From an uncultured bacterium (lineage in GTDB: Bacteria > Bipolaricaulota > Bipolaricaulia > UBA7950 > UBA9294): a stretch of DNA of 64,000 bases. The stretch covers positions 124,001 through 188,000 of the forward strand of contig CAIOGO010000015.1 of assembly GCA_903857865.1 (NCBI GenBank), written 5' to 3'. Below the pieces are notes generated by a model. The model was not told where the DNA came from, searched no databases, and saw nothing but the letters and a program-made list of their open reading frames with translations. Below, piece after piece: positions 34,534-47,332 of this stretch; within the stretch, counting starts at the first letter, position 1; every line of letters begins with the position of its first letter. Made by a program: the position numbers and the translations under genes.

Positions 34534-35259
34534 ATGAGACGGGTGAGATTCCGACTGCCGGGCAGGGACGAAGTGCGAGAAGGGATTCTGGAGCGCGACG
34601 TGGTGCGGTCAGGCGGGCAGCGCTACTCACTCGAGTCGATCAGGCTGGCGGCGCCGTGCACGCCATCGAAGCTCGTCTGCGTAGGACGCAACTACGCCGC
34701 GCACGCCGCCGAGCTGGGCAACGAAGTGCCGGAGCGTCCGCTCCTCTTTTTCAAACCCTCCTCAGCGGTCATCGGCCCCGACGAGCCGATCGTCCTGCCG
34801 GCGAGTGACGACGTGCACTACGAGGCGGAGCTGGCCGTCATCATCGGCCGGCACTGTCGGAGCGTTCCGGCGGCGCGCGCGAACGACGTCATCCTTGGCT
34901 ACACCTGCCTCAACGACGTATCGGACCGGGTCGCGCAGAAGTGGGAGAAGAACTGGGTGCGCGCGAAGGGGTTCGACACGTCGGCTCCTCTCGGTCCGAT
35001 CCTTGTGACGCCGGACGAAGTGGAGGAACCGTTCCACGTCCAGTTGCGATTGAATGGGGACGTGAAGCAGGACGGGTGGACGAGCGCGTTCATCTTCTCG
35101 ATCCCCTGCCTCATCGAGGAGATCACGTCCTTCATGACGCTCGAGCCGGGCGACGTCATCGCTACCGGCACGCCCGCGGGGGTCGGGCGGCTGTCACGTG
35201 GCGACGTCGTCGAGGTCGTCATCGATGGCATTGGCACATTGCGCAACCCTGTTCGATAG
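34534..35259 (+). CDS. fumarylacetoacetate hydrolase family protein
   Basis: A 241-residue FAH-fold protein. It shows VGRNYAAHAAELGNEVP, the metal-binding Glu pair in VHYEAELAVIIG, and the C-terminal FMTLEPGDVIATGTPAGVG. Members include 2-hydroxyhepta-2,4-diene-1,7-dioate isomerases, acylpyruvases and oxaloacetate decarboxylases; the broad YcgM-like group is the closest by feel. A lone gene with its own promoter gives no pathway clue. Confidence 0.9.
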   Translation: MRRVRFRLPGRDEVREGILERDVVRSGGQRYSLESIRLAAPCTPSKLVCVGRNYAAHAAELGNEVPERPLLFFKPSSAVIGPDEPIVLPASDDVHYEAELAVIIGRHCRSVPAARANDVILGYTCLNDVSDRVAQKWEKNWVRAKGFDTSAPLGPILVTPDEVEEPFHVQLRLNGDVKQDGWTSAFIFSIPCLIEEITSFMTLEPGDVIATGTPAGVGRLSRGDVVEVVIDGIGTLRNPVR

Positions 35260-35292
35260 TCGAAGCGGAGCTGTGACTGCGTCTTCGCCGAC

Positions 35293-35321
35293 TTGGCGCG
35301 TCGCCGTACCCCGTGTATGGT
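35293..35321 (+). promoter_or_regulatory. promoter of the Cys-rich protein gene
   Basis: TTGGCG (35293-35298), 17 nt and TATGGT (35316-35321). The expected transcription start near 35328 makes the ATG at 35368 with GGAGGAGGT the likely start; the in-frame ATG at 35332 would lose its upstream ribosome-binding site. Confidence 0.55.
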
Positions 35322-35367
35322 AGGAGGAGAGATGTCTCCGCTACTCGGCGGAGGAGGTGGCTGCCAC

Positions 35368-36768
35368 ATGAAACGCAAGACGCAAGTGCTCCTGGTATCG
35401 GTGTTTCTTGTGATGGCGCTTGTTGCGACGAGCGAGTGGCTTGCGCAGAGAAGCGCCGTGGAGACGGAAGTCGCGTGGAGCCCACTCTACGAGCGACGGG
35501 TGTCGGATGCGTTGGTTCCCATGACGTCGCAGATCGTCTACGCCGGGCTACAGTCGGCGGCCGCGCCGTGTCCTACTGCGGCCAACTGCAACGAGACGTG
35601 GGACTGTACTGCGACTCGGGATTGCCAGCCGACGGCCGATTGCGAGGACACCTTCGACTGCGAGCCAACCTCCGCCGATACGTGCCGAGGCACGTGGACG
35701 TGCGAGGGGTGGCCGACGTGCGCCGGGGCTTCCACCTGCAACGAACCCGACTGCACGCCAAGCACGCTGGACAGCGGGATCTGCGAGGGACCGACCGTGG
35801 ACGGACCCACCTGCGTCGGGCCTCGAACGTGCGACGTCGTGATCTGCGACTGGCCGACGTACGACGGGCGCACGTGCACACGGCCAACGTGCGACGGTCC
35901 AACCTGTGCGGGCGATACGTGCGATGGGCCAACGTGCTTCTTGACGCAGTGCGACGCTCTTGACTACGGGGACGCCCCCGAAATCCCAGGGACCGTTCTC
36001 CAATACGCGACAAGAAGAGAGTCGGACGGGGCACGACACGTGATCGATGGCATCTTCTACCTCGGCGGGAGGCTCGATGCTGAACCGGACGGCCAACCGA
36101 CGGAGCTCGCCGTCGGCGACGACGAGAAGGTCTACAGTTCAGAGGACGATGAAGATGGGATTTGGTTTCCCACGACTTTCAACGCTGGCCGTCCGGCCGT
36201 CGTAGTGGCTAGTGCCTCGAAGGCGGGAAAGCTATTCGCGTGGATGGACTACGACATGAGCGGAACCTGGCGGGAGAAGGGAGATGCAGTCTTCCCCGAC
36301 GGCGCGCCCCTCGCACCAGGCTATAACTGGGTCGTAGTCGCGGTTCCAGACAGTGCCACAACGGCTGGCTTCACCTTCGCGCGGTTTCGGTTCGTCGAGT
36401 CGGGGATTCTCTCACCCATCGGGGAAGCGCAGAACGGCGAAGTGGAGGACTACCGCGTGCCACTCTGCGCGACGCTCCGTGCGTGGGTGATGACGGACGA
36501 GGTGCTGTGCGCCCCCGGGGATCCCCTGGAGATCAGTTTCTACGTCAACGAGACATCTCAGGTCACGTTGGTTCGTCATCGCTCGGACGGAACGGCCGAC
36601 GTCCTCTGGGCGAGCACAGTCGAGGTCGGGCGGCACCACTACCCGGACGTTGGCGGGGTTCTCACGGCCGCGCTCCCGGAGGGCACGAGCACGGTGGAGA
36701 TGATCGTGACCTCACTGCAATCTGGAAACACGGTGTGGCTGACGACGCCGTACCAGGTGTCGCGGTAG
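35368..36768 (+). CDS. exported Cys-rich repeat protein with GEVED domain
   Basis: A 466-residue secreted protein. Residues 1-25 are a signal peptide or anchor. Residues about 68-200 contain roughly 30 cysteines in short degenerate repeats (TCDGPTC, TCEGWPTC, DCTATRDC types, mostly Cys every 5-7 residues). A GEVED-type domain follows, from DYGDAPEIPGT to NGEVEDYRV, and then a C-terminal beta domain of about 100 residues with two cysteines. Repeated DNA underlies the Cys-rich part. No sorting motif or second TM is visible at the C-terminus. It is followed 32 nt later by two giant membrane proteins in the same direction, suggesting a shared surface role. Function unknown. Confidence 0.75.
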   Translation: MKRKTQVLLVSVFLVMALVATSEWLAQRSAVETEVAWSPLYERRVSDALVPMTSQIVYAGLQSAAAPCPTAANCNETWDCTATRDCQPTADCEDTFDCEPTSADTCRGTWTCEGWPTCAGASTCNEPDCTPSTLDSGICEGPTVDGPTCVGPRTCDVVICDWPTYDGRTCTRPTCDGPTCAGDTCDGPTCFLTQCDALDYGDAPEIPGTVLQYATRRESDGARHVIDGIFYLGGRLDAEPDGQPTELAVGDDEKVYSSEDDEDGIWFPTTFNAGRPAVVVASASKAGKLFAWMDYDMSGTWREKGDAVFPDGAPLAPGYNWVVVAVPDSATTAGFTFARFRFVESGILSPIGEAQNGEVEDYRVPLCATLRAWVMTDEVLCAPGDPLEISFYVNETSQVTLVRHRSDGTADVLWASTVEVGRHHYPDVGGVLTAALPEGTSTVEMIVTSLQSGNTVWLTTPYQVSR

Positions 36769-36800
36769 GCGGTGGGAGCCTGAGCTGTCTGGCCCAACCC

Positions 36801-39155
36801 ATGACCCGTGCGAACGAGAGAGCGAACCATCGACAGTTCCTCGTTTCGTTTCTCGCCCTCGTGGCTGTCGGGTTCCTGTCGCGCGACATCGTCCCGCTCC
36901 CGTCGGAGATCTCGCGATTTGCGATCGCGGCGTGGATCGCAGCGCTTGCGATCGCCTGGGCACCGCACCGACACTGGACGCAACGCTCGGCGTGTGGCGT
37001 TGCTCTCGCCGCGGCCGGCGTGATCGGGGTCATCGCGAGTCCGTGGTTGGCGCTTCGCCTCACCAGCCTCGGGCTGTGGGTCGCCGGGGTGGGGTTGGAG
37101 CTTCAGGATGACGAGGAGCGACGGTCGCTCGCTGGCCCGATGTGCGCGACCCTAGTGCTCGCGATCCTCGATCTCGCGCCGACGGCCCGACTCGTCCTTG
37201 CGAACGCGTCGAGCTGGCTGTCCGGTGAGCTCCTGGCTCCCTTCGGGGGCGGAAGCTTCAGTGGACCGTCAGGGGGACTCGTCGCGTTCCTTGTCCTTCT
37301 GACCTGCCTTGGCGGAACGTCGCGGCGCGCCGCGAGTCTCGGGCAGAAGCTGGCCGTCGCCCTGGCGCTCGTTGTCCTCTTCCTCGGACACCTGGGAGTG
37401 GAAAGGCACCTCGTCGCGGGCGGCGTTCGCGCCGCGTGGAGCGGCGCTACGTTCCTCCTTGGCGCTCTTGTCGTGGCCGCCTACCTTGCGCTTCCCGCCA
37501 GGGGTAGCCCAGCGGGGGAGCCAGGCCGCGGAGGCGGCGCGCTCCTCGCCGGGCTGGCCGCCGCATGTATCCTTCTACCCGTCTCGCTTGCGACCGTCGA
37601 CGGCCTACGTGACGCGGCGCAACCCTCGAAGCGCATTCTCCTGGTGGACGTCGCCATGCTCGCTGACTACCGAACCCCGGCCGACAAGCCCCCTGGGCAG
37701 GCGTTCACAGGGGCGTCGTTCGGGCTCTTGCCGCTCTACCTTCGCGCGTACGGACACGATTGCACCCTTGCCGCAGGGTTTGACGTTGACCTTTGGACAA
37801 AAGCCGATGTTGTGATCGTGATCAACCCCGGGCGCGCGTTCACGTCCGAGGAACGGGAGATCCTCCTCGACTTCGTCCGCAAGGGAGGAGGATTCCTCGC
37901 CCTTGCCGACCACACCGACATCGGCGGGATCATGGAGTCGTTCAATGGTCTCTTGGCATCAACCGGGCTGAGGGTGCATTTCGATTCCGCGGTCTCCGCG
38001 CGCCACGAGTGGCGCGGCTCGCTCATCCTCCCGTACCCGGAATCCGTGATCTTCAGCGACGCGGACGTCCCGGTGAGCATCGGCGCATCCGTGTCGGGGA
38101 GCCCGTGGGCCGCGGTTCGCCCCCTCCTACTCGGAACGGACGCCTTCTCCGACCCGGGAGATCGTTCGAACGAGGAAGGACTCCTCGGCAACCTGGAGTT
38201 TGACCCGGGGGAGGATTACGGCGACATCCTCCTGGGCGTCGAGCGGGACCTCGGTCGGGGGCGAATCGCCTTGCTTGGCGATACGTCGGTCTTCCAAAAC
38301 CTCGCGCTCGCGTCGTCATCCGGCTATGTGGATCGACTTGTCCGGCACCTCGGAAGCGGGGCACGGACTCCCCCAGCGCTCGCTCTCGCGTCGGCGATCC
38401 TCGGGGTCGCCCTGCTTCTCGCGACCGCACGCCGGTCCCGCACGGCATACGGCCTCCTTCTCGTAGCTGTCTGCGTCGCAGCGGGGTTGGCGGCGGCGGA
38501 CCTTCTCCTCTTGCGTGCCGGCGACGTGGAGTTGCCGCGCGGAGGACCGATCGGCGTGATCGACGTCGCGCACGCCAACCTGATCGATCGCCAGGCGCTC
38601 AGTCCTGAAGGGATCGACGCTCTCGCCGTGGCCGTCGCGCGATCCGGAATCCTGCCGATCGTATGGGATCGTGCGCCGGCGTCCCCCTCCTTGGGGGAGG
38701 GAGAGACTTGGATCAGCGTCGCGGCAACGAGGCGATACTCGTCGAAAGAGGTCGAGGGGTTGCACGAGGCGGTCGAGCGAGGTGCGACGATCGTCATCGG
38801 AACTCGTTGGCCGTACTCGGCCGCCGCCGCGCCGTTCCTCGCCTCCCTTGGGCTCGCGGTTTCGAACGTACCCCTCGGTGCGGTGCGCCCGGAAGTCGAC
38901 GGGCTCTCGGATGCGCCCGAGTTCTCCTCCGCGTGGGCCCTCAGGGTGGGCGACGCGTGGACAACTCTCGGCCGCGCCGATCTCGGCGACGAGTCGTTCG
39001 TCGTCGCAGTGGAGCGCGGGTTCGGCTTGGGGAGAATCGCCGTCGTCGCAGATACCCGCGTCTTCACGACCGAAGCACTCGAGGGAAGAGGGTACGCATT
39101 CGTCGAGAACCTGCGGTTCCTCGAGCGGTTGCTCAGCGGGGAGGCGACCCCGTGA
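36801..39155 (+). CDS. polytopic membrane protein with two GATase-like (DUF4350-like) domains, copy 1
   Basis: 784 residues: about seven TM helices (residues 10-250), a first GATase1-like domain (RILLVDVAMLADY ... VVIVINPGRAFTSEEREILL, KGGGFLALADHTD), two more TM helices (about 510-560), and a second shorter domain (GPIGVIDVAHANL ... GATIVIGTRWPYS) at the C-terminus. The repeated V-hydrophobic-DHTD/GTRW pattern resembles the DUF4350/GldG-type extracytoplasmic domain, which lacks a catalytic Cys. The ribosome-binding site before ATG 36801 is weak; coupling to the upstream gene is possible. It overlaps its paralogue by 4 nt. Role unknown; perhaps assembly or anchoring of surface material. Confidence 0.7.
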   Translation: MTRANERANHRQFLVSFLALVAVGFLSRDIVPLPSEISRFAIAAWIAALAIAWAPHRHWTQRSACGVALAAAGVIGVIASPWLALRLTSLGLWVAGVGLELQDDEERRSLAGPMCATLVLAILDLAPTARLVLANASSWLSGELLAPFGGGSFSGPSGGLVAFLVLLTCLGGTSRRAASLGQKLAVALALVVLFLGHLGVERHLVAGGVRAAWSGATFLLGALVVAAYLALPARGSPAGEPGRGGGALLAGLAAACILLPVSLATVDGLRDAAQPSKRILLVDVAMLADYRTPADKPPGQAFTGASFGLLPLYLRAYGHDCTLAAGFDVDLWTKADVVIVINPGRAFTSEEREILLDFVRKGGGFLALADHTDIGGIMESFNGLLASTGLRVHFDSAVSARHEWRGSLILPYPESVIFSDADVPVSIGASVSGSPWAAVRPLLLGTDAFSDPGDRSNEEGLLGNLEFDPGEDYGDILLGVERDLGRGRIALLGDTSVFQNLALASSSGYVDRLVRHLGSGARTPPALALASAILGVALLLATARRSRTAYGLLLVAVCVAAGLAAADLLLLRAGDVELPRGGPIGVIDVAHANLIDRQALSPEGIDALAVAVARSGILPIVWDRAPASPSLGEGETWISVAATRRYSSKEVEGLHEAVERGATIVIGTRWPYSAAAAPFLASLGLAVSNVPLGAVRPEVDGLSDAPEFSSAWALRVGDAWTTLGRADLGDESFVVAVERGFGLGRIAVVADTRVFTTEALEGRGYAFVENLRFLERLLSGEATP

Positions 39156-41614
39156 GACTTCGAGCCGCTTTGTGGTGGGCGAGTCTGGCGTTCGGCGTGG
39201 CCGGCGCCTGTCTATGGGTGCGGTTGTACGCGGAGATCCCCTTCCTGGCAGGGGCCTTCTGCGTCGCCGTTGCAGGCGCGCTCGCCGGATGGGGATCGTC
39301 GATGTCAGGCACTGCTGAAGCGTCGGCGAGCCGGTGGCGGCTCGGCGGTGTCGCGGTCGCCTGCATCGCCTGCCTTCCGTTTATCTCGGCGGAGTTGCGG
39401 ATCGCCGCCGGCGTCGTGGCGATCGGAGCGGCGATCGCGATGCTCCGGGCGAAGGGGGCACGGAGGATCGGGGGCGGGATCGCCGCCTCTGGACTCCTGT
39501 CGCTGCTCCTCGTCGGAGCCACTGGCCTCTTCGTGCGGTTCGCGGCTTCGGCCCACGAAGCGGCGCCGCTCCGAATCCTCGAAACCTGGATGGCGAAACT
39601 GCTCGGGATGGGAACGGCGACCGTCGGAAGGGAGATCATCCTGCCCGCGGGATCGAGGTTCGTTCCGGCCGTGCCGAGTTGGGATCAGTTCGGGCTCCTC
39701 TACGGCGTCCTGATCGTCGTCAGCGTCGTCGGCTTCGCGGCGTTGACGCAAGGGTCCCGCGGTCTCGCTCGCGTCGCCGTTCGGTCGATCGCGCTCACGA
39801 TCGCCTACCTCGGGGCGCGGCACTTCGTGCTCCTTCTCGTCGCTCTTGAAATGGCGCGCCCAAGCGTCTTTTGGGTTCCTTCGGTCGTGCTCCCCACGCT
39901 TGTGCCCCTCTTCCTCCTTCTTGTGCGAGTCGCAGGCGTCCGCGCGGAGTGGAACGCGACGCCACTTCTTCAAGGCGGCGACCTCTCGCCGCGGCGCGCC
40001 GCCGTGGCGACGACCGCGGTGGTTGTCGGGACGTTGCTCGTCTCGCTCGCCTTCCTCCTCGCCCCGGCTGGCGCGCGCTCGGACGGACGCGTACTGTTCG
40101 ACGAGGCGCATGGAGAGTGGGAAAGCACGTCTCGCGCGATGGACACAGAATGGTACGGACTGGCCTCGACGTACAACTACGACTCACTCTACCGATGGCT
40201 CGACGACTACTACGAGGTCGGACGCGTGACGGGGCGCATCGACTGTGCTGACTTGCAGCGCGGCGACACTCTCATCCTCAAGACTCCGTCCATCCCGTAC
40301 ACGCCCAACGAAGTGGACGCAATCACCGCTCACGTACGGCGGGGAGGAGGGCTCCTCGTCATCGGCGACCACACCAACGTGTTCGGCACGACGAGCGTCC
40401 TCAACCCGGTCTTGGCGCCGTTTGGCCTCCGGTTGGGGTACGACGCGACGTACCGTCTTCGTGATGGTGGGTTCACCGTCTACGAGTCCCGCGGAACCGC
40501 CGACCCGATTCTCCAACACATCGCACAATTCGACTTCCTGACATCGTGCTCGCTGTACGGGGGGGCATTCACCCTTCCCGTCATCTACGATGCTCGAATT
40601 CTCGCCAACGTGGCCGACTACTCGACCCCCAACTTCTTCCCGGAGAGCCGCGTCGCCTTGACCTCGACTTTTGGAGCCTTCCTCCAGGCTGGGGCAGTCG
40701 AAGCGGGTCGCGGCCGCGTCGTCGCGTTCACCGACAGCACGTGCTTCTCCAACTTCAGCCTGCACATGGACGGATACACGGGGTTCCTGCTGGGTACGAT
40801 CGAGTACCTGCGCCGCGAGAACCCGCTCCCGGGCTGGCGGCCGATGGCCACCGCACTGGGGGGCATTGCCGCCGCAGGCGGTCTTGCCATCTGGGCGGCA
40901 AGTAGGCGGCGCTCGGCCGTGATTGTCGGGCTCGTCAGCGTCCTTGTCGGATGCGGAGCGGCGGCGGGTGTGACCGCGGCGCTGCACCGCGCCGCGTATC
41001 CGGTCCCGTCCCCGCGGAAGGATGTCCCGTACGTGTACTTCGACCTCTCGGAGAGCCGCGCTAGAATCGAGGCGCAGCCCTCGGTCACGGGTCCGCTGAG
41101 CTCGCGAGCGGCGTTCAATACGTTCTTCACGTGGACGCAGCGGGCCGGCCTCGTCCCCACGCTCGTGAAAGGAGAAGCGAGGGCTCTCGCTGAAGGGAGG
41201 CCGTATGTGATCCTCAACCCGACCGGGCCGCCGGGCTCGTCGCGGGAGCGACTTGTGGACTACGTGCGAAACAAGGGCGGCAGCCTCGTTCTCATGGGGG
41301 ATCCCGTCCGGGACGAGGAAGCGCTTGAAGGGTATTGCGCGCTGTTCGGTCTCACGCTCGTGCCGAATCAGAGCCAGAGCCTCATCCTTTCCACGGGCGA
41401 AGTCTCCAGCAGCAAGATCAGCCCAGCGCAGACGGTCTATACGTCCGTCGCTCGGATCGGCGCTGGGCGGGTCGTCGTCGTGTCGGACTCGGTGGCGTTC
41501 TCCGACCTCTCACTGGGCGGAGGGTTCACCGTCCCCTCCACGGTTCAGCGGCGGTTGTACGACCTCGAGTTCTGGCTCTTTGGCACCCTCTTGGCGAGTG
41601 AGCGGCGCGACTGA
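39152..41614 (+). CDS. polytopic membrane protein with two GATase-like (DUF4350-like) domains, copy 2
   Basis: 820 residues with the same plan as the preceding protein: an N-terminal block of about eight TM helices (1-310), a large extracytoplasmic domain (RVLFDEAHGEWES ... VDAITAHVRRGGGLLVIGDHTN, then FTDSTCFSNFS), two TM helices (about 565-610) and a C-terminal domain (VPYVYFDLSESRA ... YVRNKGGSLVLMGDPV). Matching GGG-LLVIGDHT and KGGGFLALADHT segments show the two genes are paralogues that have diverged strongly. GTG 39152 has GGGGAGG upstream and overlaps the first gene's TGA (GTGA). No catalytic residues recognised. Confidence 0.7.
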   Translation: MRLRAALWWASLAFGVAGACLWVRLYAEIPFLAGAFCVAVAGALAGWGSSMSGTAEASASRWRLGGVAVACIACLPFISAELRIAAGVVAIGAAIAMLRAKGARRIGGGIAASGLLSLLLVGATGLFVRFAASAHEAAPLRILETWMAKLLGMGTATVGREIILPAGSRFVPAVPSWDQFGLLYGVLIVVSVVGFAALTQGSRGLARVAVRSIALTIAYLGARHFVLLLVALEMARPSVFWVPSVVLPTLVPLFLLLVRVAGVRAEWNATPLLQGGDLSPRRAAVATTAVVVGTLLVSLAFLLAPAGARSDGRVLFDEAHGEWESTSRAMDTEWYGLASTYNYDSLYRWLDDYYEVGRVTGRIDCADLQRGDTLILKTPSIPYTPNEVDAITAHVRRGGGLLVIGDHTNVFGTTSVLNPVLAPFGLRLGYDATYRLRDGGFTVYESRGTADPILQHIAQFDFLTSCSLYGGAFTLPVIYDARILANVADYSTPNFFPESRVALTSTFGAFLQAGAVEAGRGRVVAFTDSTCFSNFSLHMDGYTGFLLGTIEYLRRENPLPGWRPMATALGGIAAAGGLAIWAASRRRSAVIVGLVSVLVGCGAAAGVTAALHRAAYPVPSPRKDVPYVYFDLSESRARIEAQPSVTGPLSSRAAFNTFFTWTQRAGLVPTLVKGEARALAEGRPYVILNPTGPPGSSRERLVDYVRNKGGSLVLMGDPVRDEEALEGYCALFGLTLVPNQSQSLILSTGEVSSSKISPAQTVYTSVARIGAGRVVVVSDSVAFSDLSLGGGFTVPSTVQRRLYDLEFWLFGTLLASERRD

Positions 41615-41804
41615 ACAGGTGAGACTCGTCAGGACATCGGCCTCGGCTTCACCGCTCCGGTGTCGCAGATGCCATCCCGCTTTTGCACCGGATCGGTTGT
41701 GCGGCGAACGTTGTGCAGCGCTGGGGAAGCTGCTGAGAGTGCACGATTGACTCGGGGCGCAGAAGCCTCGCAGGGATCGTCGGCTTGCGCTGGGACAGCA
41801 ACTC

Positions 41805-42602
41805 CTAGTGCCCTGAAGCGTCCTCGGCCGGCGCGACGCGGCCCGTGCCATCGATTCGTTGACGGACGCACGGGTCTCCAACGAACTCAATCCTTCCAAA
41901 GCCATCGATGCGAGCTTCGAGGGACTCCTCCGCCCACGTCGTGACCTTGCCGACACCGTCGATCGAAACGTCGGCGACGCGCGCCTGCATCTTGTGGGCA
42001 TCGACGGTGCCAGCTCCGTCGATCTCGATCGAGAGAGAGTCCGTGGTGCCTTTGGCGACGACTCTCCCTTGCCCATCGATGGAGACTTGCGTCTCGTGGC
42101 ACACGAGACGGTCCACCTCGATTGTCCCGGCTCCGTCGATCTCGAATCGGGCGTCGTGCGCCGCCGCGGAGGCGATCGACAAGCGGCCGCTGCCGTCGAT
42201 TTCGAGACCGAGATGCTGCACGTCGACTACACCGATGTCGATGTGCCCCGCGCCGTCGATGCTGGCGTCGAGAGACTCCGACTTCACGTGCGGCGCGTCG
42301 ATCGACCCGGTCCCGTCGATCGCCAGGCCGCAGATCTTGGGCATCGTGATCTCGTAGCGGATCGATCGGTCTTGGAGATGGATCGGGAACACCCGCTCCT
42401 GCAGGCGAAGCGTGAGAGTTCGCTCCTCGACGCGCGTCTCGATCTTGCTCTGGAGATCCTCAGGTGCCTCCACCACGAGGCGTTCCACGTTACCCTGCGT
42501 TACGTCCACGTGGCCGATTCCGTCGAGGATGACTCGCTCAAACGGCTCGACCGAGCGTTCCTCGCGGACACAGGTTCCCAGGTCACTCGTCTCGACAACC
42601 AT
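41805..42602 (-). CDS. GIN-domain (DUF2807) protein
   Basis: A 265-residue protein made of repeated beta-strand units of the form xIDGxGxI/V (IDGTGSID, IDGAGHID, IDGSGRLS, IDGAGTIE, IDGQGRVV, IDGAGTVD, IDGVGKVT, IDGFGRIE, IDGTGRVA), typical of the DUF2807/head-GIN right-handed beta-helix. The N-terminal FERVILDGIGHVDVTQG is the family entry motif. No signal peptide is seen, which is unusual since most are exported. It stands alone, with 190 and 263 nt gaps on either side in which I see nothing. Confidence 0.75.
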   Translation of the reverse strand: MVVETSDLGTCVREERSVEPFERVILDGIGHVDVTQGNVERLVVEAPEDLQSKIETRVEERTLTLRLQERVFPIHLQDRSIRYEITMPKICGLAIDGTGSIDAPHVKSESLDASIDGAGHIDIGVVDVQHLGLEIDGSGRLSIASAAAHDARFEIDGAGTIEVDRLVCHETQVSIDGQGRVVAKGTTDSLSIEIDGAGTVDAHKMQARVADVSIDGVGKVTTWAEESLEARIDGFGRIEFVGDPCVRQRIDGTGRVAPAEDASGH

Positions 42603-42865
42603 GACTCCTCCCTTTCATCGGGCGCCGGTCCAGGGCTTTCCCCGGTCGCCCCGCCACCGAACCTTTGCTTGACTATGAGTAGCCGTCTCAATGCGATCCG
42701 GTTCAAGGCGCCGCGCTCGCTTGGGACACGGGAGGCGCTGGATTGGCCAAGGGCAACTCCGCTACGGGATCACGCGTCTCCGCCTGGTGTAGGCAGGTGA
42801 GCTCCGCGCCACGCGCACGCTGCGGTTGAGGCCGGGCCGATGTGCGGATACCGTGCTTCCTGACG

Positions 42866-44149: not shown

Positions 44150-44842
44150 CTACCGACCGCGCTCCTCGATCGAGAGGCCAGGAATCCTCAACCTCATTTC
44201 GGCGTAGGCAAGCATCCGCGACAACAGGATGACCATGACCAGGTACATGACGCCGGCGATGATGTAGGACTCGAATACCCGCCCGGTCTTGGAGGCCACC
44301 TTCATGCTCGCGTACGACAGTTCCTCCAGGCCGATGAAGTAGACGGTCGAGGAGTAGAGAAGCGTATAGATGAGTTCGTTCGACCACGACGGGAGGACGA
44401 TGCGCAACGCCTGTGGGAGGATAACAGAACGGACGGCTTGCATCTTCGTCATCCCCATCGAGCGAGCCGCCTGCATTTGTCCTGAGCTGATCGCCTGGAT
44501 TGCACCGCGGATGTACTCGGCTTGGTAGGCGGCGCTGTTCAGAGCCATCGCGAGACAACCCGCCGCCAACGAACTCAGCGGCTTCAGGCCCATGGCTTTG
44601 AAGTACGGCGGAAGGCCGAAGTAGATGACGAGCACCTGGATGACGAGCGGCGTGCCGCGCATGAACTGGATGTAGACATTGGCAATGCCGCTCAAGACTC
44701 GGTTCGCGTAGACCCGCGTCAACGCTAGGAAGAGGCCCAGGACGAGCCCGGCGCCGATGCCAACGGCCGTGAGTTCGAGCGTGACGCCAACGGCTCCGAG
44801 GAAGCGCGGCATCACCGTCCCGGTGAACTCAAAGAAGCTCAT
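44150..44842 (-). CDS. polar amino-acid ABC transporter permease (HisM/GlnP type)
   Basis: 230 residues with about five TM helices and the coupling motif of amino-acid permeases, [17 protein letters not shown] and [27 protein letters not shown] in order. ATG 44842 overlaps the ATPase stop by 4 nt. With the second permease, ATPase and binding protein it forms a complete importer. Confidence 0.92.
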
Positions 44843-45624
44843 TGCCCGTCCGTCTCCCCATACAGCTCGGTGATCTTGCGCAGGAACTGTCCCGTGCGTT
44901 CGCAACGGGGGCAGGTGAACAACTCAGCCGGCGTTCCCTCTTCCAGGATGCCGCCACCCTCCATGAAGATGATCCTGTCGGCAACGGCGCGGGCGAATCC
45001 CATCTCATGCGACACGACGATCATCGTCATGCCGCCACGAGCCAACTGGATCATGACTTCCAGCACCTCGCCAATCAGTTCCGGGTCGAGCGCTGAGGTC
45101 GGCTCATCGAACAGGATGAGCTTCGGATCCATCGCCAGGGCTCGGGCGATGGAGACACGTTGCTTCTGTCCACCGGAGAGTTCCGCCGGATACGAACACG
45201 CCTTTTCGGCAAGGCCGACGCGCGCCAGTTCCTCGCTTGCGCGTGCCAGAGCGGCTTCCTTCGGCATCTTCCTGACCTTGATGAGCCCGAGACTGACGTT
45301 CTGAAGCGCGTTGAGGTGGCTAAACAAGTTGAAGTCCTGGAACACGAAGCCAATCTGCGCCCGAACGTGGTTGATGTTCGTTCGGGCGTGAGTAATCTCG
45401 ACATCCTCCAGCCACACACGGCCCTTGTCCGGCACAGAGAGCTGGTTGATGCAACGGAGGAGCGTGCTCTTGCCTGTTCCCGACGGGCCGATGACGACCT
45501 TCGTCTCCCCGCGGCGAAGCTCGAACGAGACGCCCTTGAGGACTTCATCCTTTCCATATCGCTTGTGTAGGTCCTCGACGCGAAGAACGACGTCGCCGAG
45601 GCGGGATTCACTCTCTGCGGGCAT
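44839..45624 (-). CDS. polar amino-acid ABC transporter ATP-binding protein
   Basis: 261-residue GlnQ/HisP-type ATPase: Walker [11 protein letters not shown]-loop [10 protein letters not shown], signature LSGGQKQRV, Walker [13 protein letters not shown], switch VSHEMGFAR. The short C-terminal tail has CPRC (a possible metal site), not general in the family. It overlaps the upstream permease stop as TGATG and the downstream permease as ATGA. Confidence 0.95.
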
Positions 45625-46334
45625 CAGCGTTCCACCTTTCCTTTCATCTCGAACCCCGGGATGCTCAGCCGGCGCTCGAGCAGCGCGAGCAGTCCGTTTC
45701 CCCCGTAGGTGAGCGCCAGGTAGAAGAGCCCGAGGATGATGAGGTACGGAAGGATCAGTTGGGTTCCGATAGGACGGCGCATGGAGAGGGGCGCCAACTT
45801 CATCAGCGCCTGACGCGTCAGGTCGATGAGCCCGCCGATGACGCAGATGAACGCCGTATCCTTGACCACACTCGAGTACTCATTCGCCCACGGCGGAATC
45901 GCCAGGCGGAACGCTTGAGGAACGATGACGCTGCGAATGGCTTGGATTCTGCTCATTCCAAGCGAGCGCGCAGCCATCATCTGCCCGGGTGGCACGGCCT
46001 GGATGGCGCCGCGGAAGATCTGCGATTGGTACGCGGCCGACCGCATCCCAAGAGCCAACGCCGCGACAACAATGCCCGGCACAGGCACGCCGAGCGCCGG
46101 GGTGATGCCGTTCCAGAAGAGGAGGATGACGACGAGGGGAGGAATGCCCCGGAACAACTGCTCATATCCGACACAGAGAGCGCGGAGCGGACGCCGTCCG
46201 TACGCCTGCGCGAACGCGAGGACAGTACCCAACGTCAATCCCACAATGAGCAAGAGACCGAGGACCTCGAGCGTAACCGGCAGCGCATCGAAAAGCGGTC
46301 GCACATTCTGCCAGAGAATCTCAGTGGCGGTCAA
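45624..46334 (-). CDS. polar amino-acid ABC transporter permease, second subunit
   Basis: 236 residues with about five TM helices and the EAA-type loop SAAYQSQIFRGAIQAVPPGQMMAARSLG. It is paralogous to the other permease, so the channel is a heterodimer. TTG 46334 is the start, with GGGGGAGGG 4 nt upstream; the next in-frame ATG would truncate TM1. Confidence 0.9.
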   Translation of the reverse strand: MTATEILWQNVRPLFDALPVTLEVLGLLLIVGLTLGTVLAFAQAYGRRPLRALCVGYEQLFRGIPPLVVILLFWNGITPALGVPVPGIVVAALALGMRSAAYQSQIFRGAIQAVPPGQMMAARSLGMSRIQAIRSVIVPQAFRLAIPPWANEYSSVVKDTAFICVIGGLIDLTRQALMKLAPLSMRRPIGTQLILPYLIILGLFYLALTYGGNGLLALLERRLSIPGFEMKGKVER

Positions 46335-46366
46335 CGCACCCTCCCCCTGCGAGGGATTGCCTCAGA

Positions 46367-46396
46367 GAGGGCACGAGGCATGCGCCTCGTGCCCTC
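46367..46396 (-). terminator. 13-bp intercistronic hairpin
   Basis: GAGGGCACGAGGC, an ATGC loop and GCCTCGTGCCCTC form a perfect 13-bp stem between the binding-protein gene and the first permease. No T-run follows, so partial termination or 3'-end protection is more likely than full termination, as in other ABC importer operons where binding protein is needed in excess. Confidence 0.6.
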
Positions 46397-46420
46397 CTCA
46401 GACTTCCGACTAGAAGTGCT

Positions 46421-47278
46421 CTACGGGGCTGTTGCGCCGGCGGCCAAAGCGTGTGCGAAGCCGGTAACGTCCTTCGCCGCCAGGAATGGAGCTGCAGCGA
46501 CCCATGCCGCCTCGATCTTCGTCAACTCCGCGCCGCCCATATAGGCGGTGATCAGATCGGCCCACGCGGTCGACGCTTTGAGCTGTTGGAGCCCGGCGTT
46601 GATCTTCGGGAGGAGTCTGTTCGGATCGCCATTCGTGACGAAGAACCCAAACTGCTCGCCGGTTTCGATGACTCCGACGATGGAGAGCCGAGCGTCCGCG
46701 GCCACGCTGGCGCGAGACGCGGGTTCATCCTGAACCACAGCGTCCACGTTCCCGTTGACAAGGTCGAGCACGGCAAGCGGATAGAGCGTGTACTCGACGA
46801 GCTTGACGTTCACGCCTTTGTCGATGAGCTGTTCCTGCACCCACTTTGCTCCCGTGGTCCCGACTTGGGCGCCGATCTTCATCCCGGCGCTGAGTGCGCT
46901 GGCGATGTTCAAGTCGGAGTCCGCCATTACGATGACGGCCTGGTTCGACGTCCAGTAGGGCGCCGAGAAGTCCACTACCGCCTCGCGCTCCGCTGTGATC
47001 GTGGCTCCAGACGCACCGATGTCTACGCGCCCGTTCCCGACATCGATGAAGATGATGTCCCAGCTGTAGCTGACAATCTCGACATCGTACCCCTCGAGAA
47101 TAGCGATGAGCCGCATCACATCGAGGTCGAATCCGATGAGCTGTCCGCCGCCCGCCTGCCACTCGAACGGAGGCCACGTCGTGTCCGACGCCACCTTATA
47201 CGTCGCGGCGGCCGCGGACACCATGCAAAGCCCGACGACAGCCAACAGACACCCTAGTACCAGGAGATTTTTCTTCAT
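46421..47278 (-). CDS. extracellular amino-acid-binding protein of ABC importer
   Basis: 285 residues: signal peptide (1-25, ending SAAAATY), then a family 3 solute-binding fold beginning YKVASDTTWPPFEW and LIGFDLDVMRLIA, with VDIGASGATITAERE and VDAVVQDEPAS. These match the ligand-binding hinge of polar amino-acid receptors. No lipobox is clear, so it is either periplasmic or held by its uncleaved signal. AAGGAGG sets ATG 47278. It is the first gene of the importer operon. Confidence 0.92.
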   Translation of the reverse strand: MKKNLLVLGCLLAVVGLCMVSAAAATYKVASDTTWPPFEWQAGGGQLIGFDLDVMRLIAILEGYDVEIVSYSWDIIFIDVGNGRVDIGASGATITAEREAVVDFSAPYWTSNQAVIVMADSDLNIASALSAGMKIGAQVGTTGAKWVQEQLIDKGVNVKLVEYTLYPLAVLDLVNGNVDAVVQDEPASRASVAADARLSIVGVIETGEQFGFFVTNGDPNRLLPKINAGLQQLKASTAWADLITAYMGGAELTKIEAAWVAAAPFLAAKDVTGFAHALAAGATAP

Positions 47279-47303
47279 CCTGCTACACCTCCTTGCTGGA
47301 ACA

Positions 47304-47332
47304 ACGTAACGGGAAAGCGCCGCGCGAGTCAA
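47304..47332 (-). promoter_or_regulatory. promoter of the amino-acid importer operon
   Basis: Minus strand TTGACT (47332-47327), 17 nt, TTACGT (47309-47304), 25 nt before the binding-protein ATG. The -10 is poor, so a regulator or weak basal activity is possible. Confidence 0.45.

Follow-up and report, generated by a model that had tools for sequence, protein, structure and literature searches.

A conserved operon for a cysteine-rich GEVED protein and two tandem GIFT-domain membrane proteins in Candidatus Bipolaricaulota

Operon structure and inheritance

A 64,000-nucleotide stretch of contig CAIOGO010000015.1 (assembly GCA_903857865.1), hereafter the window, carries three real genes in a tight, conserved operon. 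Their products are designated P1 (466 aa, a cysteine-rich protein with a GEVED domain), P2 (784 aa) and P3 (820 aa); P2 and P3 are polytopic membrane proteins carrying domains of the GIFT/DUF4350 family. The three genes are inherited together or lost together, and the triplet occurs at no fewer than two chromosomal positions. We tentatively read it as a surface-protein module in which P2 and P3 would form a two-subunit membrane scaffold with P1 as its client, a reading that in our estimation falls just short of being probable. As far as was searched, the combination is undescribed; the domains used as building blocks are known. The host genome, a 2.24-Mb draft, belongs to Candidatus Bipolaricaulota; a profile search of genome contigs gave Candidatus Bipolaricaulota/Acetothermia metagenome-assembled genomes as its nearest named relatives.

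The open reading frames lie on the forward strand at 35368–36768 (P1), 36801–39155 (P2) and 39152–41614 (P3). P1 and P2 are separated by 32 nt, and P2 and P3 overlap by 4 nt (GTGA), the start codon of P3 being GTG. On re-checking, these coordinates, lengths and spacings all agreed with an initial annotation made from the window's letters, whose word “giant” for proteins of 784 to 820 aa is an overstatement. Spacing is similar in two relatives: a 35-nt gap and a 4-nt overlap in genome G076, and a 28-nt gap and a 1-nt overlap in G074. Good ribosome-binding sites precede P1 (GGAGGAGG) and P3 (GGAGG). P2 has no obvious site, consistent with its translation following that of P1. All three genes are under purifying selection, with Ka/Ks values of 0.18–0.47 that should be considered rough because Ks is close to saturation. 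The single promoter proposed earlier at 35293–35321 found no support: TTGGCG-17-TATGGT agrees with the consensus at 8 of 12 bases, and a promoter scan does not report it, giving a different weak site at 35231–35260.

Distribution was surveyed in 100 genomes of the phylum. P3 orthologues were found in five (the window's genome, G074, G075, G076 and G030), and P2 in the identical five. P1 is present in the window's genome, G074 and G076, that is, at 3/3 loci where the contig extends upstream; the contigs of G075 and G030 stop before its place. Separation of the genes in relatives had been set beforehand as the finding that would speak against the triplet, and wherever the contig allowed, the genes are adjacent. 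P2–P3 order and spacing are also kept in another family (G030). A single profile search of genome contigs, which reaches only close relatives, returned just three members of the phylum. No triplet relatives were found among plasmids and viral contigs.

Gene order in the window is FAH–P1–P2–P3–DUF2807–HAD. G075 has P2–P3–HAD, and G076 has two contigs, both broken inside P3, that read FAH–P1–P2–P3 and P3–HAD. In G077, a congener of G075 and G076, FAH and HAD are ∼50 nt apart and the slot is empty. In G069–G071, from the genus of the window, it is occupied by genes for an LTD protein and a secreted protein of 295 aa, and in G092 and G074 by one for a DJ-1/beta-propeller protein. The G074 triplet sits across FAH from this slot, with lspA as its other neighbor. 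From the empty slot, the other occupants and the second position it follows that the unit was gained or lost whole, at two or more positions. Triplet identity to G074 is 37–50% while that of DnaN is 70%, and this divergence hints at a separate history there.

Domain composition of P2 and P3

P2 and P3 share one plan, in which an N-terminal transmembrane (TM) block is followed by a large GIFT-type domain, a TM hairpin with an Arg-rich turn, and a second domain (all coordinates on the forward strand). In P2, the first GIFT-like domain (37632–38345) is placed by a profile match to 5fmr and by alignment to the P3 domain, the hairpin (38364–38522) by hydropathy, and the DUF4350 domain (38601–39095, residues 601–765) by PF14258 (E = 2.8e-17). 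In P3, an AlphaFold2 model gives a block of ∼9 TM helices (39155–40057) in which TM6 is preceded by an extracytoplasmic beta-hairpin. It is followed by the first GIFT domain (40082–40819), identified against 5fmr by both sequence and fold and by PF14258 (E = 3.7e-16), the hairpin (40835–40996; model and topology check) and a second GIFT-like domain (41027–41596; model and alignment to the P2 DUF4350 domain).

The hidden Markov model search that the initial annotation had proposed for DUF4350 and GATase1 domains placed PF14258 well above its cut-off of 30.4 bits in both proteins (64 bits for P2, 60.3 for P3). P3 also passes the cut-offs of IFT52_GIFT (28.1 versus 27.2) and MBTPS1_4th (34.8 versus 27). 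A profile search of the PDB matched the GIFT domain of IFT52 (5fmr) with E = 7e-8 for the P3 family and 0.002 for the P2 family. Structure prediction, also proposed earlier for both membrane proteins, gave for P3 a model with a mean predicted local distance difference test score (pLDDT) of 62. Within it, residues 311–616 have the GIFT fold, aligning with IFT52 5fmr_A at Z = 14.8 (root-mean-square deviation 3.2, 175 residues aligned); other fold matches were site-one protease 8uw8_A (Z = 14.7), the ThuA-like protein 1t0b (13.2) and GH42 enzymes (11–12). By curated Pfam score, and for P3 also by fold, P2 and P3 belong to the GIFT/DUF4350 family, and the earlier term “GATase-like” can be sharpened to this type, with IFT52, the fourth domain of site-one protease (S1P), ThuA and GH42 as relatives.

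Two motifs, GGG-hydrophobic-(G/A)DHT(N/D) and GxGR-hydrophobic-D-S/T-xxF, are kept in nearly all P2 and P3 relatives. The shared DHTD (37908–37919, P2) and DHTN (40367–40378, P3) are present as originally reported. Class I glutamine amidotransferases have their catalytic Cys at the nucleophile elbow; the conserved stretch of the first motif, which may or may not correspond to that elbow, lacks Cys.

Profile–profile comparison aligned P2 and P3 over 479 columns (E = 6e-26), from the last TM helix of the block to the C-terminus, and over this region the two are, judged by their profiles, tandem paralogues. The earlier description of the proteins as paralogous stands for that part but not for the N-terminal TM blocks, between which profile comparison detected no similarity. 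Scans of the TM blocks against Pfam and NCBIfam gave nothing convincing. The model of P3 has ∼11 TM helices in total. Its mean pLDDT is 40–50 at residues 53–134, 55–82 at 140–260, and 80–92 across most of 680–780, in the second GIFT-like domain. In a topology check, the loops predicted to be inside held Arg/Lys clusters at TM4–5 and at the hairpin, and some loops were neutral. With the N-terminus inside, nine TM helices before the first domain and Arg-rich inner turns, both large domains of P2 and P3 would be extracytoplasmic.

GIFT-like domains also occur in other proteins. A 932-aa secreted protein (L063:314-3112) has an N-terminal DUF4350/ABC_transp_aux domain of this kind fused to a GH113-like glycosidase domain, and an 1128-aa secreted protein (L061:2749-6135) has carboxypeptidase-regulatory and PHP domains fused to an N-terminal ABC_transp_aux/IFT52_GIFT domain, which also matches OST48_N weakly.

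Resemblance of the P3 TM block to exosortases

P2 and P3 might alternatively combine GIFT domains with a degenerate, catalytically dead block of exosortase fold; the pair would then act as a platform of the sorting type, handling P1 without the usual Cys transpeptidase chemistry. The P3 block contains an exosortase-like pattern (LG..T...G.eI..p, then TM, Arg, TM). A reference model (pLDDT 92) was built from 20 exosortase sequences of the phylum, and residues 138–260 of P3 (39563–39931) repeat its order of elements with similar spacing: helix, E-E-E, 4-residue helix, helix, long helix, helix. Two independent models thus share an element order; superposition was not possible and pLDDT is low in parts of the P3 block. 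Searches of the PDB turned up no relative of the exosortase model and no structure of an exosortase, which precluded a direct comparison of folds.

When hhalign was restricted to the block, 85 columns aligned in exosortase register, placing the invariant Arg111 opposite Arg223 of P3 and the catalytic Cys70 opposite Trp177; the full block, however, yields another local alignment. In shuffle controls (300 per null), the observed raw score was reached by 11–35/300 and the probability weighted by secondary structure by 2–9/300. Exosortase family models in Pfam and NCBIfam matched none of nine N-terminal blocks, the catalytic Cys is Trp in the P3 sequences, the invariant exosortase His130 has no conserved partner in them, and the P2 block gave no hhalign match. 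Taken together, hhalign, HMMER and the shuffles are suggestive of homology, and the sequence similarity is not significant. We therefore treat the likeness as a lead, not as membership, and consider the dead-exosortase explanation doubtful.

The host genome does encode an XrtH/ArtB-type exosortase elsewhere (locus L064, G000:C22:58000-76000, at ∼8.2–10.1 kb). It has a TACTG active site, scores 80 bits to XrtH (cut-off 86) and has as a near neighbor a CARDB/DUF11 protein that terminates in an IPTL-CTERM-like LTEWGMIGLSVAFVIAFAW segment. Approximately one-fifth of the phylum's genomes encode an XrtH/ArtB-type exosortase at E < 1e-3.

The cysteine-rich protein P1

P1 had been described as a secreted Cys-repeat/GEVED protein, and both features were borne out. 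The GEVED domain (36232–36459, residues 289–364) matches PF20009 above the cut-off (E = 7e-8) and is the only domain found in P1 by a Pfam scan. CshA-like fibrillar adhesins are the proteins in which GEVED domains were defined (PMC10952558). P1 has orthologues adjoining P2–P3 in G076 (64% identity) and in G074 (49%). A sole hydrophobic segment at the N-terminus (35377–35448, by hydropathy) may be a signal peptide or a signal anchor, so that P1 is predicted to be exported or anchored; its sequence has neither a C-terminal TM helix nor a sorting signal.

The Cys repeat (35569–35952) consists of hexads C-x-x-T-W/x-D and then pentads C-D-G-P-T, with units such as CNETWD, CTATRD, CQPTAD and CEDTFD followed by CTRPT, CDGPT, CAGDT and CDGPT. 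P1 has 21 cysteines, with spacings of 6,6,6,6,6,8,6,6,6... and then 5,5,5,5,5. Its nine 6-residue spacings were matched by 0/20,000 shuffles, and the phasing is far from chance. The hexads may resemble the disulfide-stapled beta-helix of beetle antifreeze protein. The P1 family and the Cys repeat, searched by sequence against the PDB, gave only weak matches, to the LDL receptor or thioredoxin-interacting protein (E > 0.2), which were taken as chance or composition.

Neighboring genes

The genes flanking the triplet encode FAH hydrolase, LspA, Tmk, DnaN, AlaS, a DUF2807 protein and HAD. In the window neighborhood, no ABC ATPase, MoxR/vWA or gliding genes lie alongside the triplet, and a PADLOC scan for defense genes found none. 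The DUF2807 gene (putative auto-transporter adhesin, head GIN domain; 41805–42602, reverse strand) is immediately downstream and convergent. It is common to the window and G069–G071; in G075 and G076 no such gene was found in the P3–HAD interval. The FAH–HAD interval (35259–42842; L080, L081, L082, L083, L086, L056), bounded by housekeeping genes, is a variable slot that holds differing secreted-protein cassettes, or none, in relatives.

Interpretation

In the module that we propose, P1 would be exported and either held by its N-terminal hydrophobic segment or cleaved from it, and its Cys repeat would form a disulfide-stapled stalk bearing a GEVED domain of the fibrillar-adhesin kind. P2 and P3 would associate in the cytoplasmic membrane as a polytopic heteromer, displaying four non-catalytic GIFT-type domains outside. 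These could dock P1, an envelope glycan or lipid carrier, or both, by analogy with Wbp1/OST48 and GldG, and would thereby serve the assembly, anchoring or modification of P1 at the cell surface. We suggest docking because the GIFT domain of Wbp1 has been proposed to bind sugar or to dock lipid-linked oligosaccharide (PMC7226087) and because DUF4350 proteins were earlier predicted to be part of an envelope secretion or remodeling complex (PMC5898192); the ligand and the exact step are guesses.

Several observations favor the module: order and close spacing are kept at every locus where the contig permits; sequence and structure both point to the GIFT fold; P2 and P3 are homologous beyond their TM blocks; the predicted topology places their large domains outside; P1 has a signal-like N-terminus and strong Cys phasing; and the cassette is wholly present or wholly absent at a slot whose other occupants are genes for secreted proteins. 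Several points weigh against it. There are only five carrier genomes, all of them drafts, with P1 in three and two contigs ending before P1; the P3 model has low overall confidence (mean pLDDT as given above); P1 lacks a recognized anchor or sorting signal; and no glycosyltransferase or protein-modifying enzyme adjoins the triplet. The target of P2–P3 could also be something other than P1. The initial annotation had suggested surface assembly or sensing. The former is supported, within the reach of the tools used, by the predicted outside domains, by inheritance as a unit and by the lack of nearby gliding or exopolysaccharide partner genes; for the latter no evidence was found, as no signaling domain or regulator accompanies the triplet.

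The triplet might instead be an ordinary variable surface cassette without a joint machine, its genes being neighbors only because the slot collects envelope genes. Unrelated secreted-protein genes do fill the slot in G069–G071, G092 and G074, but P1–P2–P3 order and spacing are kept at two sites, down to 37–50% identity, and P2–P3 likewise in G030, which makes this explanation unlikely. A GldF/GldG-like ABC export accessory, with the TM block as an ABC-2-type permease remnant, the GIFT domains as the GldG-like part and the ATPase encoded elsewhere, is very improbable: ABC_transp_aux and GldG match weakly and GldG-type architectures do join GIFT domains with TM helices, but the operon has no ATPase or ABC-2 permease gene, the nearest ABC genes (44150–47332) resemble an amino-acid uptake system, GldG scores 12 bits against a cut-off of 390, and the TM blocks have no ABC-2 Pfam match.

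With the triplet, a little-studied uncultured phylum has a compact three-gene unit that can be tested. The GIFT fold, known from eukaryotic glycosylation, ciliary transport and bacterial gliding, is here connected with a bacterial surface protein whose Cys repeat is unusual, and the empty-site comparison offers an evolutionary view of a unit gained or lost whole. A bolder possibility, which we think quite unlikely, is that the triplet represents a new class of machine for sorting or assembly in the envelope, in which paired membrane proteins, each with a catalytically dead exosortase-fold block and two GIFT domains, serve one disulfide-laddered surface protein and are encoded by a cassette moving between variable chromosomal slots. 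If the exosortase resemblance were proved, GIFT domains would be tied to the protein-sorting field.

Comparison with known systems

No named system with this composition was found, and the triplet has neither gliding (GldA/F/G) nor exopolysaccharide partner genes nearby, in keeping with the earlier failure to match it to one. CshA-type fibrillar adhesins (PMC10952558) share the GEVED domain with P1, but P1 has no detected CshA_NR2 domain and no C-terminal anchor, with a Cys-repeat stalk instead, and so falls outside that type. Exosortases and archaeosortases resemble the P3 TM block in element order, and the genome has a true XrtH/ArtB-like member; the block differs in having no significant sequence match and in missing the Cys and His, and P1 has no C-terminal sorting signal.

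The archaeal DUF4350 module (arCOG01314; Makarova et al. 2015) is alike in its DUF4350 domain, envelope location and secreted-protein neighbors. Its proteins combine a signal peptide with a single TM helix at the C-terminus and mostly lie beside a MoxR-type ATPase and a vWA protein (PMC5898192), whereas P2 and P3 are polytopic and no MoxR ATPase or vWA genes adjoin them; the triplet is thus not assigned to that module. Nor does it qualify as GldG: the equivalog model scores 12 bits against a cut-off of 389.85, and the operon contains neither ABC ATPase nor permease. The closest likeness in fold is to the GIFT proteins themselves (IFT52, Wbp1/OST48, GldG and the fourth domain of site-one protease), which share the fold of the first large domain of P3; Wbp1 and GldG are also alike in TM anchoring and in the extracytoplasmic position that is predicted for the P3 domain. 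The triplet differs from all of these in lacking an adjoining oligosaccharyltransferase catalytic subunit or ABC partner, and P2 and P3 differ in being a tandem pair, each with a multi-TM block and two GIFT-type domains separated by a TM hairpin.

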